The notes below the pieces were generated by a model. The model was not told the origin of the DNA, did not search any database, and was given only the letters and a program-made list of their open reading frames with translations. This document shows positions 18,032 to 24,862 of a stretch of DNA of 64,000 bases, one piece after another. Origin of the DNA: Thermocoleostomius sinensis A174 (GTDB taxonomy: Bacteria; Cyanobacteriota; Cyanobacteriia; Elainellales; Elainellaceae). A program made the translations under genes and the position numbers. The stretch spans positions 845,026-909,025 of the forward strand of contig NZ_CP113797.1 of the NCBI RefSeq assembly GCF_026802175.1. The letters run 5' to 3'. Position 1 is the first letter of the stretch, and every line of letters begins with the position of its first letter.

Positions 18032-20881
18032 ATGAGGTATTCTGCTTTTTATCCCCGTCTGAGTCTTGCGCTCAGCCTTTGCCTAAACATTACCCTTGGG
18101 CTGGAATTGTTTCGCCCTCCAATGGCCCAAGCTCAAGTTCGCGCCGATCGCACTTTGTCTCGTACCTCACAAGTCGATCTAGACGGGAATCGCTGGGTGA
18201 TCACGGAAGGAACACTCAGAGGAACTAATTTGTTTCATAGTTTTGAAGAATTTTCTGTGCCGGAGAATGGGACAGCTTCGTTTCAAGGCATTGATCCAGC
18301 CATTGCTAACATCTTTGCGCGAGTCACAGGACAACTGCGTTCTAATATCAATGGCACGATCGAAGCGTTACAAACCAATGGAGCACTGAGTTCCGCTAAT
18401 CTATTTTTACTAAACCCCAACGGCATTCTGTTTGGGCCCAATGCCCGGCTCAATTTGGGTGGTTCATTTATTGCGACTACAGCCGATCGCATTCAATTTG
18501 CCAATGGGGTACAGTTCAGCGCCAGCACGCCTCAAGATGTTCCCTTGCTAACAGTTAGCACGCCGATTGGGTTGCAGTTTGGCAGCAATCCAGGTCGCAT
18601 TATGAACCGATCGATGGCGCAAAATTTCAGTAGCACTGGCGAGGTTCTGCTTGATCCGTTTGATGGTGAAGCACGCGGTCTCAGAGTGTTGCCAGGTCAA
18701 ACCTTGGCGCTAGTAGGCGGTTCTATCAGGTTACGCGGAGGGGGATTGGTGGCAGGAAGCGAGAACACTGAACCGGGTGGACGGATTGAATTAGCCAGTG
18801 TGGGGGCTAACGAAGTTGTTCGCCTCATTCCTAGCACAATGGGTTGGAGCTTAGGGGTGACGCCCGGGCAGAATTTTGATGATATTCGCTTGTCGCAAGG
18901 GGCAATTGTCAACACCAGCGGCAACAGCGGCGGTGCCATTGTTGTACAGGGTCGCAATATTCGACTAAGTGGCGGTTCGCAGTTCCTGTCCGTGACGCAG
19001 GCGGGCAGGGGTGAGTCTATGATTGTGAATGCCACCGATCGCCTGATCGTCACCGGAGCCTCTGATCAAGGAAATAGTTTGCTGTATACGGAAACCCAAG
19101 CAAGTGGTTCTGCTGGCGACATTCAACTTTCTGCCAGACAACTCCAAATCAGCGATGCCGGGTTTATTACGTCTCTGTCGTCTGGAAGCGGCAAGGGCGG
19201 GGATGTGATGGTGAATGCCGTGGAGACCATTGAGGTGATTGGCAGACCCAGCAGCTTGGTAACGTTGGCCGATGGAGACGGAGCGGCCGGAGATTTACAG
19301 ATTTCCACCCGACAATTGCATATTCTTGAGGGTGGCGAAGTGGGATCGATCGCCAGTGGTACTGGACGCGGCGGGAATGTAATGGTCAACGCTTCAGAGT
19401 CAGTGAATATCATTGGCATTTCTACTGCTCCTGAGTTGACCGATGACGATCGGGGGGGCAATTTGTTGGCCCAAACCCAAGCAAACGGTGAAAATGCGGG
19501 AGCCGCTGGAAATATTACCGTTACAACCGATCGCCTGTTGTTACAAAACGGTGGACAGATTGCATCATCGACTGTAGGCGGTGGGGATGCGGGACGGCTA
19601 ACGGTACGGGCTAGAGACATTGAGTTAACGGGAATTGCGCTAGACGATGACGGGTCTCCGTTTTTGTCGTCGCTGGAAGATGGGAGTTTACCGTATCCCA
19701 GCGGTCTGTTTTCGGGAACCGGGCCGGGATCTACGGGCAGCGGAGGACAGTTGCGCGTGACAGCCGATCGTTTAAGCTTACGCAATGGGGCTGTGCTGCA
19801 AACTAACACCTTTGGCAGTGGCAATGCTGGCAATATGGAAATTCGCGTCAGAGAGTTTATTACAGTCAGCGGTCGTGCTCCGGGTAATTTAATCCCTACC
19901 GGAATTACCGCGATTTCTGGCGGATTTCCTGGATCGGGATTTCGAGAAGTGCGTCGTGCGACAGGCAGCAGCGGTAATATTCAGATTACAACTCAAGATT
20001 TGCGCCTTGAAGACGGGGCAGTCATTGCAACTAGTAGCATTAATCCGGCGGCAGCGGGGGCCGGACAGCTACAAATTCAAGCCCGATCGATCGCCCTCAG
20101 CAACAATGCCCAACTCAACGCTCGCACCGAATCGGGAGGTCGCGACAGTGCCACGATTGATCTACGCGGCTTAGAGCTACTGAGTTTGCAAGGCGGCAGC
20201 CAAATTACCACTCGTGCTGGGATAGAAACTGGCGGCGGCAATGGGGGCACCATTCGCATACAAGCCCGTTACATCGTGGCAGAACCTGTTGGTGATAACG
20301 ATATTTCTGCGGATGCAGGTCAGGGGGATGGAGGAGATGTCGATATTACAGCAAACATTATTGGATTGGTTCAGCAAGATCGCCCCACCTCTCCGCAAAG
20401 TGGGATCACTGCCAGTTCCGAGCAAGGCGTCAGCGGCACAATTACCATCCGTTCACCCGAATTTGACCCCACTCGTGGATTACTAGAATTGCCAACGGAT
20501 ATTGTGGATAGGTCGCGGTTGATTGCTCGAACTTGCCGTCCAGCCAATCCGGATGCTCCTCAAAGCGCGTTTGTCATCACTGGGCGCGGTGGATTGCCCT
20601 CTAGCCCTCGCGATCCGGGCAGCAGCAACCCCGTAGAATCAGATTGGGTGACCCTTCCCCCTCAAACGGAACCGACGGAACTCTCCACAACAACAGCCAT
20701 CTCTCCAGAAACTGCAATGCCAGAATTGGCAACGGGTTCACAGCCTCCTAACTCACAGACAATTGTAGAAGCCCAAGGTTGGCAAATCGGAACACAGGGT
20801 GAGATTGAGTTGGTGGCTTACTCTCAAAATCGCTCGATCGCTCCAGCAATCGAACAAAATCCTCCTTGCCCAACGCCCTAA
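18032..20881 (+). CDS. Two-partner-secretion exoprotein (filamentous hemagglutinin N-terminal domain)
   Basis: A 949-aa secreted protein with a signal peptide (residues 1-35, cleavage likely near PPMAQAQ) and a TPS domain at about 35-270. The TPS hallmarks are NLFHSFEEFSVPENGTASF, ANLFLLNPNGILFGPNARLN and GSFIATTADRI. The rest is a long right-handed beta-helix rich in Gly/Asn/Ser repeats of type GGNVMVNASESVNIIG and GAAGNITVTTDRLLLQNGG. The C-terminal 130 residues are a Pro/Thr-rich tail with two cysteines. Export would need a TpsB outer-membrane partner, which is not in the window. Many cyanobacteria carry such proteins; adhesion is a likely role but unproven. Confidence 0.9.
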   Translation: MRYSAFYPRLSLALSLCLNITLGLELFRPPMAQAQVRADRTLSRTSQVDLDGNRWVITEGTLRGTNLFHSFEEFSVPENGTASFQGIDPAIANIFARVTGQLRSNINGTIEALQTNGALSSANLFLLNPNGILFGPNARLNLGGSFIATTADRIQFANGVQFSASTPQDVPLLTVSTPIGLQFGSNPGRIMNRSMAQNFSSTGEVLLDPFDGEARGLRVLPGQTLALVGGSIRLRGGGLVAGSENTEPGGRIELASVGANEVVRLIPSTMGWSLGVTPGQNFDDIRLSQGAIVNTSGNSGGAIVVQGRNIRLSGGSQFLSVTQAGRGESMIVNATDRLIVTGASDQGNSLLYTETQASGSAGDIQLSARQLQISDAGFITSLSSGSGKGGDVMVNAVETIEVIGRPSSLVTLADGDGAAGDLQISTRQLHILEGGEVGSIASGTGRGGNVMVNASESVNIIGISTAPELTDDDRGGNLLAQTQANGENAGAAGNITVTTDRLLLQNGGQIASSTVGGGDAGRLTVRARDIELTGIALDDDGSPFLSSLEDGSLPYPSGLFSGTGPGSTGSGGQLRVTADRLSLRNGAVLQTNTFGSGNAGNMEIRVREFITVSGRAPGNLIPTGITAISGGFPGSGFREVRRATGSSGNIQITTQDLRLEDGAVIATSSINPAAAGAGQLQIQARSIALSNNAQLNARTESGGRDSATIDLRGLELLSLQGGSQITTRAGIETGGGNGGTIRIQARYIVAEPVGDNDISADAGQGDGGDVDITANIIGLVQQDRPTSPQSGITASSEQGVSGTITIRSPEFDPTRGLLELPTDIVDRSRLIARTCRPANPDAPQSAFVITGRGGLPSSPRDPGSSNPVESDWVTLPPQTEPTELSTTTAISPETAMPELATGSQPPNSQTIVEAQGWQIGTQGEIELVAYSQNRSIAPAIEQNPPCPTP

Positions 20882-20902: not shown

Positions 20903-20930
20903 AAAAAACCCCCGCAACGCCTTGCAGGGA
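20903..20930 (-). terminator. Rho-independent terminator of the head-domain array
   Basis: On the minus strand the stem CCCTGCAA / TTGCGGGG (loop GGCG, one G-T pair) is followed directly by TTTTTT. It lies 54 nt beyond the stop of the last array gene and 22 nt beyond the convergent TPS gene. It supports real leftward transcription of the array. Confidence 0.75.
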
Positions 20931-20983
20931 TTGATGAAGCAGTTAAACGTCTGTTGAATGAAGTTTGTAGAGGAAACTTGATC

Positions 20984-22210
20984 CTACATTCGAGTGACTG
21001 AAAGTGTCACTTCGCCTTCGTTGTCCTCTAAATAGGTATCGTAGAAGAAGGCGCAAACAGTAGCTGGTTCCAGCACATCCAGCAGTAACGTGTCACCATA
21101 ACCATTCAGCGACGACCAAGTCGCCCCGACCGTCACACCTGTCTTACGATTGATCACGGTTCCGCCATAAATCCACAGCAGCACGATCGGCTCTCCGGCA
21201 AACCCAGAATTAGCGCGATAGCCAAATGTACCACTCTTGAGCCTAATCGCATAGGTTCCTGGTTGCAATGTCTTAGAAACCGAAACCTCTTGCTCTAATT
21301 TCCGCATCGAGTCTGGATCGATGAAGTAACAGTTGCGCCGGCTATCGATCGTCAAATCTTCACTGTAGGTAGGACCTTCGATCGTCACTACCACTTGTCC
21401 TTCGTTGTCCTCTAGGTAAGTATCAAAGAAGAAGCCGCAGAGGGTGACTGGTTCCAGTACCTCCAGTACCAATGAGTCACCAATTCCATTCAGAGTGGAC
21501 CACGTAGCACCAACCTCAACGCCCGTCTTGCGGTTTACGACCTTGCCACCATAAATCCAAAGGAGAACCAAAGGTTCGCCTTCATGCCCCGACTCGATGC
21601 GATAGTCGAACGCACCGCTCTTGAGTTTGATCGTATAAGTACCAGGTTGCAGCACTCTAGACACTGACGTTTGATGCTGGAGGCGACCCATTGCAGCCGG
21701 GTCAATCAAGAAGCAGTTGCGCCGGCTATGAACAATCAGATCCTCTTCCGAAAAGGACGACTGATACTGCGGTGTCGATTGGGGGCTGGTGGAATAGCCT
21801 TCTACCGTAGCAGTTTGGTATTGAGCGACTGGCTGAGCAATGACTGGTTCAGGTCTAGGCTCATAGGTTGGTTGTTCCGTAGGCTGGTAGGAAACAGCCG
21901 GCTGAGTTGTCGATCGGTACGGTGCTGTGGGGTATGTAACCGTCTGATTGACAGTTGTCTGCGTCGTTGTGGACTGCTCTGTAAAGGGGTTAGACGACAT
22001 AGTTTCGCTCGTAACGGGGCAGGAGAGTCCGGCATCGATCTCTTCTACTTTGCGAACCTTGCGAACCAGGGTAATTTCTTCTTCGCGGCGAATGACGGTG
22101 CGGATAGGAGCTAAGCACACGACATCGCGACGGGCATCCCGTCCAAAACTATCAAAACTCAGGGTGCTGATATCAGTGGGAATGATTGAGGGGTTTGACT
22201 GATCGCTCAT
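20984..22210 (-). CDS. Constant-head protein D: head, Pro/Thr/Gln linker and two tandem ~125-aa beta domains
   Basis: A 408-aa protein of no family I recognise. Residues about 9-77 are the head shared with the next three genes (SFDSFGRDARRDVVCLAP, RREEEITLVRKVRKVEEIDA, GLSCPVTSETMSSNPF). Residues about 78-152 are a Thr/Pro/Gln-rich linker. Then come two tandem repeats, about 156-280 and 284-408. Each contains HSRRNC or DSRRNC, LQPGTY(T/A)I(K/R)LKSG, VLLWIYGG, VGATWS(T/S)LNG and DTYLEDNEG, with alternating hydrophobics typical of beta sandwiches. There is no signal peptide. The ATG at 22210 has GGAGAG upstream. It is the last gene of the array and ends at a terminator. Confidence 0.8.
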   Translation of the reverse strand: MSDQSNPSIIPTDISTLSFDSFGRDARRDVVCLAPIRTVIRREEEITLVRKVRKVEEIDAGLSCPVTSETMSSNPFTEQSTTTQTTVNQTVTYPTAPYRSTTQPAVSYQPTEQPTYEPRPEPVIAQPVAQYQTATVEGYSTSPQSTPQYQSSFSEEDLIVHSRRNCFLIDPAAMGRLQHQTSVSRVLQPGTYTIKLKSGAFDYRIESGHEGEPLVLLWIYGGKVVNRKTGVEVGATWSTLNGIGDSLVLEVLEPVTLCGFFFDTYLEDNEGQVVVTIEGPTYSEDLTIDSRRNCYFIDPDSMRKLEQEVSVSKTLQPGTYAIRLKSGTFGYRANSGFAGEPIVLLWIYGGTVINRKTGVTVGATWSSLNGYGDTLLLDVLEPATVCAFFYDTYLEDNEGEVTLSVTRM

Positions 22211-22231
22211 ATCTCTCTCCAATAGGGACGA

Positions 22232-22507
22232 CTAGATGGCGGCGGCGGGCATAGGTTGGGTATGGGCAGTGGACTGTCCGGCTGGCTCAACTAAGGGATT
22301 GGTAGATAAGGGGGCGCTGCTGATAGGGCAGGAGAGTCCGGCATCGATCTCTTCTACTTTGCGAACCTTGCGAACCAGGGTAATTTCTTCTTCGCGGCGA
22401 ATGACGGTGCGGATAGGAGCTAAGCACACGACATCGCGACGGGCATCCCGTCCAAAACTATCAAAACTCAGGGTGCTGATATCAGTGGGAATGGTTAAAT
22501 CACTCAT
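22232..22507 (-). CDS. Constant-head protein C: head with short variable tail
   Basis: A 91-aa protein from the ATG at 22507 (MSDLTIPTDISTLSFDS). Residues about 5-62 are the shared head. Its 168 nt from 22326 to 22493 are identical, by direct comparison, to 22017-22184 in gene D. After LSCPISSAPLSTNPL the protein departs into a unique Ala/Pro/Gln tail (ending MPAAAI). It ends 21 nt before the ATG of gene D, suggesting co-translation. A T-tailed hairpin lies just upstream of its start. Function unknown; the neighbouring copies and conserved frame argue that it is a real gene. Confidence 0.72.
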   Translation of the reverse strand: MSDLTIPTDISTLSFDSFGRDARRDVVCLAPIRTVIRREEEITLVRKVRKVEEIDAGLSCPISSAPLSTNPLVEPAGQSTAHTQPMPAAAI

Positions 22508-22538
22508 CGCAGAACAAAAAAGCATCAATCTTGAATCT

Positions 22539-22565
22539 GAAAAATGCCACGTATCTTGGTGGCAT
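22539..22565 (-). terminator. Terminator or attenuator inside the head-domain array
   Basis: Read on the minus strand, ATGCCAC and GTGGCAT form a 7-bp stem with an 8-nt loop and are followed by TTTTTC. It lies 107 nt beyond the stop of gene B and only 32 nt before the start of gene C. That leaves little room for a separate promoter, so genes C and D may depend on read-through. Confidence 0.55.
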
Positions 22566-22671
22566 GGAAAAATGATGGTCAGGCATTCGAGATACAATCA
22601 CCAAAATGCCTAAACCACCATTCTCAGCAACCAGCAGCAACCTGATAGTTCAAGTTGCTGTCTCTCAGTTG

Positions 22672-22908
22672 CTATTGCACAAACGGATTAGACGACATGG
22701 TTTCGCTCGTAACGGGGCAGGAGAGTCCGGCATCGATCTCTTCTACTTTGCGAACCTTGCGAACCAGGGTAATCTCTTCTTCGCGGCGAATGACGGTGCG
22801 GATAGGAGCTAAGCACACGACATCGCGACGGGCATCCCGTCCAAAGCTGTCGAAGCTCAGGGCGCTGACATCGGAGGGAATAACATAACCGTTTTGTTGT
22901 TCGCTCAT
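22672..22908 (-). CDS. Constant-head protein B: head only
   Basis: A 78-aa protein from the ATG at 22908, preceded by GGAGAC. It is MSEQQNGYVIPSDVSALS followed by the full head and ends shortly after TMSSNPFVQ, so it is essentially the head domain alone. It differs from protein A at only a few positions near the N-terminus and at one residue in the head (T for V in EEEI(T/V)LV). Two conserved cysteines (VVCLAP and LSCPV) and a highly charged middle segment are present. No signal peptide, no membrane span, no recognised family. Confidence 0.72.
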   Translation of the reverse strand: MSEQQNGYVIPSDVSALSFDSFGRDARRDVVCLAPIRTVIRREEEITLVRKVRKVEEIDAGLSCPVTSETMSSNPFVQ

Positions 22909-22978
22909 GAGAGTCTCCAAGAATATTGCAAGAACTAAGAACTAAATTGCAAAAACTAAATCGTAGGCATTAAGCGAT

Positions 22979-22992
22979 CGCCTTTCGAGGCG
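22979..22992. other. Small stem-loop between array genes A and B
   Basis: CGCCT-TTCG-AGGCG forms a 5-bp stem with a four-base loop, 11 nt beyond the stop of gene A. There is no T-tract. It could be a processing site or a weak pause in the array transcript. Confidence 0.35.
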
Positions 22993-23003
22993 AAATCGAT
23001 CGA

Positions 23004-23240
23004 CTATTGCACAAACGGATTAGACGACATGGTTTCGCTCGTAACGGGGCAGGAGAGTCCGGCATCGATCTCTTCTACTTTGCGAACCTTACGAACCAAC
23101 ACGATCTCCTCTTCGCGGCGAATGACGGTGCGGATAGGAGCTAAGCACACGACATCGCGACGGGCATCCCGTCCAAAGCTGTCGAAGCTCAAAGCATTGA
23201 TATCAGCGGGAACGACATAACCACTTTGCTGTTCGCTCAT
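23004..23240 (-). CDS. Constant-head protein A: head only, promoter-proximal copy
   Basis: A 78-aa protein from the ATG at 23240 (MSEQQSGYVVPADINALS) with a GGAGAC ribosome binding site, the first gene in the transcription order of the array. Its head is the same as in B, C and D apart from the V substitution in EEEIVLV. At DNA level it is the most diverged of the four. Upstream lies a 1.6-kb AT-rich stretch that should hold the promoter. As with its neighbours, no known family is recognised, and function is open: structural head, regulatory peptide and modified-peptide precursor are all conceivable. Confidence 0.72.
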   Translation of the reverse strand: MSEQQSGYVVPADINALSFDSFGRDARRDVVCLAPIRTVIRREEEIVLVRKVRKVEEIDAGLSCPVTSETMSSNPFVQ

Positions 23241-24862
23241 GAGAGTCTCCAAAAACTAACGTTGGCAACTAAATAAAACCGACTAAACAGAACCTGCTTA
23301 GAAAAGCTGAGACAGAACAGAGTTGCAACTCAAGTTGAACAGATTAACCAGTTCAAACCATTGAGCAGGATAGAAGTTGAACGAGCATCACCCTATTTGG
23401 CAACTTTAATTAAAACCAGTAATAGAGTAAATCAATCGTTAAAAATACCCCTTGAAATCTCTGTTCTTTGTAATACCTTTTGGTATTAACAACGATTTAT
23501 AGACTACCCTTTATTTGCTCATTTGTAAACCCTAGTTTTTGATTTCATCTATTAATTTTTTGAGAAATTCCTGGTAGCTAACTTGATCAAATTATCTACA
23601 TAAAAAACTAGATAACAGCGCAATTAATAGGCAATAAAGAGTATTGTGAAAGACGATCGTCAAACAATCAAGCATTCACTGAATCCTCAATATTACCCAC
23701 ACTATTTTATGGGTATTACCGCTATTACCCTTACCAAATGCCGCTTTTGACAACATTTAGTATGTTGAAACTTATGAAATTCCTTTTTACAAATTAACTA
23801 ATCATGAGAATTAATGGCTGGATGAGATCGATTTATATGATCGCCTTCAATGAAGCAAAATATTGACCGTTTGAAGTACATGACAATCTGCTTAAAACCA
23901 GTCAACTGCCTACATGGCTATGTTTCTATTCTTCTTTAATCTCAAATTTTTCAATCTCATATCTATTTCAACCGACATAGCATGATCCACATTCAGTGAT
24001 AATTCACAAGCACACCTTGATCACTCACCAAAGATCACTCACCAAACACCGCACAAACATCGAACTGGGAAATAACTTCGCAGTTCGCTACACACAAGCA
24101 CATGGCTTGCCAATATTTCAACAATTCCTGAGATGTAAACTCTTAGGACAAGAGCTAGGAATGATAAGGAAAATTGACCTAATTATTAAAGTCAAACCCA
24201 AATACTATTGACGATCAACGTTGTTACAATCGCGACTATGTAACAGCCTACCAGGTGCACCTCCATAGAACTTGGAATCTATAGAGGCCATTCATAAATT
24301 CCTGCGATCTACAGCCTTTACAGTCTACAGTTTCGATTCACCACCAATTTTTGTAAGAGTTGTCGATCGAACCAATGAGAACAATGCTTGTCTGGAAACC
24401 CAACTTGATGATTCGCCAGTCAGTTTGTTGTTAGGAAACCCAATTTTCTCTGTCTACTCTGTCTGATGTCTAAGCTGAACCTCACACTCTAGGCGATGAG
24501 CCATGGCTCCAATTAGCGCAAAATCCAGTGAAGACATCCGGAGGAAGCTCGTCTATCTATGTACTGGCTACAGTATCAAATTTTGTTGCCCTTTTGAAGT
24601 TATCTGCTAGACATTTCCAATTTTCTTAATTTTTATCCGTCTAATAATTAGTTTCTGTCGTAAAATCCGTAATTTATTGGCGAGTCTTAGCAAAAACCTG
24701 GGTATTTATAATTGGAGCCTTATCTCTACTCTGTCTACCTATAGTGTGGTTTCGATCGGCAACCGCTTGATTTGGGTTTCGATCGCAATCTCTCCATGGT
24801 CAGCCATCGGGTGCTGTCGCGCTGACCTTTGACATTATTCATCCAAAAGGAGAACCGTCTCT
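23241..24862. other. 1.6-kb AT-rich stretch without a convincing gene
   Basis: Two short plus-strand frames (23,996-24,211 and 24,272-24,466) lack ribosome binding sites and coding-like composition, so I do not call them. The stretch contains hairpins built on TACC/GGTA words: TAATACC-TTTT-GGTATTA at 23,471-23,488 and TACCCA...TGGGTA at 23,694-23,715, with further ATTACC words to about 23,735. It separates the divergent head array and the small gene at 24,863. A regulatory leader or a small RNA is possible. Confidence 0.45.

Follow-up and report, generated by a model that had tools for sequence, protein, structure and literature searches.

This locus raises the question of what a nearly invariant protein head, shared by four adjacent genes that otherwise end differently, might do. 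In the window (the whole stretch of DNA that was analyzed, 64,000 nucleotides), four consecutive open reading frames on the minus strand (20984-23240) have the head in common, as the original prediction had described. Gene 1 (23004..23240) and gene 2 (22672..22908) encode head-only proteins of 78 aa, gene 3 (22232..22507) a head with a short Ala/Pro/Gln tail (91 aa), and gene 4 (20984..22210) a protein of 408 aa that matches both our HEAD and REP2 profiles. The 37-residue core of the head (DVVC...SCP), defined on 59 heads, occupies positions 23046..23156, 22714..22824, 22325..22435 and 22016..22126 of genes 1 to 4, respectively, all on the minus strand. The composition proposed for gene 4 is borne out by its translation and by the AF2 model: the head is followed by a Pro/Gln/Thr-rich linker of about 75 residues (77-152; 21755..21982) and by two beta-rich repeat units of about 125 aa (residues 153-279, 21374..21754, and residues 280-408, 20987..21373; boundaries approximate). 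The two 78-aa proteins are indeed short and head-only, but they do not stop right after the head as had been thought, since 13 further residues (VTSETMSSNPFVQ) follow it. Similarly, ribosome binding sites had been proposed for all four genes, and a clear GGAG was seen by eye upstream of genes 1 (23247-23250), 2 (22915-22918) and 4 (22217-22220), but not of gene 3.

The array ends, as predicted, in a T-tailed hairpin of 11 pairs on the minus strand that resembles an intrinsic terminator (20907..20932); five terminator-like sites were found against 2.8 expected in shuffled sequences, and this hairpin has the longest stem. The number of promoter-like sites around the array does not exceed that in shuffles, and no RNA element matching Rfam was found around the array, including positions 23241-24000. 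The latter region, upstream of the array, is long and AT-rich, and its minus strand shows no obvious genes. On the plus strand, a gene convergent with the array (18032-20881) encodes a protein of 949 aa that contains a TPS secretion domain; this gene is not among the conserved neighbors of head loci. Long antisense open frames overlap the heads in the window (22232-22613, plus strand, and in the other head genes) and are met again at other loci; they most likely arise as a side effect of codon use in strongly conserved sequence.

The four array proteins differ by a single residue over the 49-residue stretch LSFDSF...GLSCP (LSFDSFGRDARRDVVCLAPIRTVIRREEEITLVRKVRKVEEIDAGLSCP), and the corresponding DNA differs among the four genes at 1-14 of 147 bases, mostly synonymously. 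Near identity in protein together with mostly synonymous change in DNA reveals true paralogy rather than chance resemblance. A fifth head-only gene, an orphan about 2.4 Mb from the array in the same genome, differs from the array copies at 34-42 of the 147 bases, again mostly at synonymous sites. Because the array copies are far closer to each other than to this fifth copy, they are either recent or homogenized. Gene 4 is a mosaic of gene-3-like and gene-1/2-like sequence: of the 13 sites at alignment positions 24-135 that distinguish genes 2 and 3, it shares 12 with gene 3, whereas at positions 195-219 all 13 distinguishing sites match gene 2. The simplest reading of this pattern is that recombination occurred inside the array. 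Across 205 pairs of heads the median dN/dS is 0.11, a value that points to strong purifying selection on the protein sequence.

Heads were found in 20 scattered cyanobacterial genomes, with Scytonema sp. NIES-4073 and Microcoleus sp. FACHB-1515 among the carriers, and the comparison covered 59 head proteins. All 59 have a core (consensus DIVCVAPVRTIVRREEEIVLIRRVRKVEEIDASPACP) of exactly 37 residues, with no insertion or deletion; it contains 14 invariant positions, among them two cysteines that are kept in every protein. Its position in the protein is not fixed: the head stands alone in 32 proteins, is N-terminal in 10, C-terminal in 16 and internal in one. Without exception, each protein carries one head. 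The head is rare and its distribution patchy (10 of 390 genomes of the class, and 3 of 65 genomes of one order); a scan with the head pattern of 84,980 bacterial and archaeal species, each represented by one genome, recovered 24 loci, all of them cyanobacterial. The earlier statement that no family could be recognized holds for the head, for which no convincing match was obtained: Pfam returned no family up to an E-value of 1 for three head-only proteins and for P0001, a profile search of the PDB returned nothing, and the best PHROG match (E 0.016) was not convincing. The sole NCBIfam match, to CbbX at an E-value of 0.16, was judged to be due to chance. Literature searches returned nothing on this gene set. 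The head is a real, undescribed modular tag. A mobile or phage origin was considered and rejected, as the head is absent from the viral contigs, plasmids and phages searched. Membership in a known defense system was also rejected; the only PADLOC matches were generic TPR ones and, near one contig, JAB and E2 genes. At one locus, a JAB-domain gene and a gene weakly similar to E2 conjugating enzymes lie directly downstream of a PA14-head gene (L080:1291-2702).

That a conserved head on differing tails forms a modular system, as had been suggested, is strongly supported by the presence of at least five tail types in the 20 genomes: a LecA-type lectin, PA14/fibro-slime, VWA, DUF4394/DUF6923 propellers, and the two-repeat domain of the window. 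Up to four architectures occur in one genome, for example in Lyngbya aestuarii. Several of the tails, by contrast, belong to known folds. The LecA-type tail (L064, L066, L068-L071, L077 and L079) is predicted, from the confident tail part of the model, to have the LecA jelly-roll fold; it resembles the LecA (PA-IL) family members LecA, PllA and EclA at a Foldseek probability of 0.93-1.00 (0.96-1.00 for 1l7l, 2vxj, 5ofz and 6ygq), with a modest target TM of 0.46-0.61 and a sequence identity of about 17-22%, and differs from them in carrying a head. Its motifs WNYG and D...DN are conserved, and eight sequences share the Y of WNYG, the D of ND, and DN without exception. We take these residues to be the LecA calcium site, as mapped with the help of an alignment with PllA. 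The LecA-type tails are predicted lectins, and galactoside binding by them is putative. A survey of cyanobacterial lectins mentions neither LecA nor PA14 (PMC10655256). The VWA tail matches Pfam weakly and has an intact DxSxS metal motif. In its AF2 model the two-repeat domain forms two beta-rich units, with a confident mean pLDDT of 86.6 across both, and no convincing structural relative of it was found in the PDB or among viral models.

Tails that are tagged separately in one species are fused in another. In Lyngbya aestuarii (L062) the VWA, two-repeat and propeller modules are encoded as three separate chains with one head each. VWA is joined to the propeller in a single chain in Coleofasciculus LEGE 07092 (L075) and in Zarconia (L078), the propeller is joined to the two-repeat domain in L067, and in Coleofasciculus S288 (L066) a single chain of 1081 aa unites VWA, propeller, two-repeat and LecA modules with one head. 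The observation that modules which are separate and tagged in Lyngbya are fused in a one-head protein in Coleofasciculus suggests that the head can substitute for covalent fusion. A head that gathers modules is needed only once per chain, which matches the single head observed in every protein. Head-only proteins are also present in 17 of the 18 genomes that encode a tagged protein, the exception being an incomplete MAG; two genomes have only head-only genes, on short contigs. Heads with different tails in one genome are more similar to each other (0.876) than heads with the same tail in different genomes (0.807), and in none of 500 trials with shuffled genome labels was the observed within-genome similarity reached, although common ancestry and gene conversion both contribute to it as confounding factors. 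Repeat-domain genes that are themselves headless lie beside heads in L058, L060, L061 and L068-L070; tagging is therefore not obligatory.

Our best explanation, to which we give an even chance, is that the head is a homotypic co-assembly tag used together with head-only filler subunits. The 37-residue core would have little stable structure as a monomer and would take on order when it pairs with other heads or with a single common hub. The head-only proteins would then act as filler, and head-tagged proteins would bring binding modules (LecA-type lectin, PA14, VWA, propeller, two-repeat) into the same complex, which may be cytoplasmic or released by a non-classical route and whose purpose may be multivalent binding. 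The array in the window would supply three head-only subunits and one subunit that shows paired repeat domains. When a head-lectin protein was modeled with AF2, its head came out without secondary structure, at a pLDDT of about 40; because the head alignment is shallow and highly conserved, this low value is weak evidence for folding on assembly. Judged from the tails, one would most naturally think of multivalent lectin or adhesive complexes. Of the roles listed in the original prediction, assembly fits best, whereas bait and cargo proteins find no specific support, and a delivery or processing leader is disfavored by heads that are C-terminal or internal and by the lack of any visible secretory feature. 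If the tag does assemble modules, it would represent a new family of assembly tags that are small and portable, the natural swaps between tagged and fused modules would make domain co-operation directly testable, and several groups of orphan cyanobacterial proteins would be explained together. It would also provide a context for cyanobacterial LecA-type lectins and a compact candidate for multivalent displays.

An alternative explanation takes the head for a redox-switched docking peptide: its cysteines would be targets of the dedicated neighboring thioredoxin, and the head-only proteins would be free regulators or competitors instead of building blocks. Both head cysteines are invariant in 59 of 59 proteins, and a thioredoxin-family gene is found in 11 head clusters, where very few would be expected by chance (the genome of the window has eight thioredoxin-like matches in 5.8 Mb). 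The active sites of these neighbors are atypical: they read CGYC, CGSC, CEYC, CSYC, or the single-cysteine forms CPYS and CSSS, and never the usual CGPC. Against this explanation, the array in the window has no thioredoxin beside it, the nearest relative in its own genome being located at 2.83 Mb, and several further loci also lack this neighbor, although some of their contigs are short. A redox link between heads and thioredoxin is plausible but unproven, and we consider the docking explanation unlikely. Two of the thioredoxin-like proteins beside heads (L062:15233-15550 and L072:13471-13791) have lost the second active-site cysteine (CPYS, CSSS). The cysteines may also be combined with the co-assembly tag: that the two invariant residues and an adjoining atypical thioredoxin make assembly redox-dependent is a more speculative addition. 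In its most elaborate form, which we advance only tentatively and think improbable, this would be a previously undescribed, redox-gated and self-assembling scaffold confined to cyanobacteria, in which a 37-residue tag without a monomer fold polymerizes with head-only subunits into a particle or fiber showing interchangeable lectin, PA14, VWA and propeller modules, while a dedicated atypical thioredoxin controls the disulfides.

Rather doubtful, too, is the proposal that the head serves as an address or export signal, directing modules to one place, be it a secretion route, a membrane or a compartment. Several tails are like adhesive or sugar-binding domains, which are usually extracellular, and a TPR protein with a hydrophobic N-terminus that adjoins eight head clusters could be a membrane receptor. 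Nevertheless, the head varies in position (N-terminal, C-terminal, internal), the 32 head-only proteins carry no cargo, and no conserved transporter was found among the neighbor clusters inspected. Hydropathy also revealed no signal-like or membrane-spanning segment in the 59 head proteins (maximum 19-residue value 1.5), and a single head per fused set of modules is no more expected for an address than for assembly. Very unlikely, in our estimate, is an amyloid-type signaling or storage motif that templates beta-fibers between small and large proteins. The head is short, modular and rich in beta-branched residues, has no predicted monomer fold, and resembles bacterial amyloid signaling motifs in that a short motif occurs across different architectures (PMC7889193, PMC8086366); but it differs from them in its very high charge, with invariant R, E and K positions, in its fixed length, and in that no NLR-type receptor is fused to heads or conserved beside them. 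An internal two-fold repeat in the head was tried as well, and the pseudo-repeat is not significant (p 0.065). Short tandem genes with cysteines, recently homogenized in the window, could finally suggest a RiPP leader or mere recent gene duplication without a shared role. This reading is hardly credible and already contradicted by the comparative data: no modification enzyme occurs among the conserved neighbors, heads are fused at either end to folded tails of 200-1000 aa, and purifying selection is strong.

Among known systems, the closest comparison is with the effector-associated domains (EADs), small non-enzymatic modules of conflict systems in multicellular bacteria that are prominent in filamentous cyanobacteria (Kaur et al. 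2020, PMC7159879). As with the head, several copies per genome are attached to different domains, adjacent copies are most alike, and homotypic pairing has been proposed (PMC7159879). The head differs from EADs in having a 37-residue core without a predicted autonomous fold, two invariant cysteines and many head-only genes, and its proteins carry lectin, PA14 and propeller tails rather than catalytic effectors. An EAD would be expected to be linked to an NTPase core system (MoxR-vWA, STAND or GTPase). The gene clusters inspected because at least three head loci have them in common were TPR, thioredoxin, Tle1-like and repeat-domain genes; a VWA is present, but no MoxR or STAND partner was seen. 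Pfam includes EAD models, and since there is no profile match, no NTPase core in the neighborhood of heads and no predicted autonomous fold, we do not file the head as an EAD; by analogy, it may work like one. CP12-like proteins are small, cysteine-containing, disordered regulators of about 75 aa with little monomer structure and a link to thioredoxin, and they occur alone and fused. The head has one cysteine at each end of the core instead of two pairs, its sequence is unrelated, and Pfam found no CP12 signature in it. CP12, RiPP precursors, amyloid signaling motifs and export leaders all fit less well. Small cysteine-bearing subunits that build a multimer, as proposed here for the head, are known from Ena, the disulfide-linked endospore appendages (PMC8619143); Ena models are also weak Foldseek matches (probability 0.41-0.66), though of the jelly roll of the LecA tail and not of the head, and homology is not implied.

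Some neighbors and tail domains also occur without heads. A Tle1-like (DUF2235) hydrolase, itself headless, is found in three head clusters (L066:3993-5021, L075:14442-15488 and L078:10536-11570). The two-repeat domain is also widespread where heads are absent (42 of 291 genomes). In the genome of the window, the repeat unit of gene 4 also exists as a stand-alone, single-unit protein of about 131 aa (L105:5156-5551; C1, about 533-537 kb), next to a gene that combines a PBP (PstS-like), three DUF4912 domains and the unit (L105:5715-8645). The PBP protein has a hydrophobic segment with the unit on its far side, an arrangement that hints at, without proving, a cytoplasmic location of the unit. 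This headless gene pair is widespread in cyanobacteria and was also seen in L109 and L112. Headless proteins of 850-1140 aa in L106, L107, L110 and L111 join the two-repeat domain to a long repetitive C-terminal extension, in L107 and L111 together with a propeller; the extension is probably coiled-coil and ends in a conserved NWTLEQLxxLQxCLTDRQAL motif.
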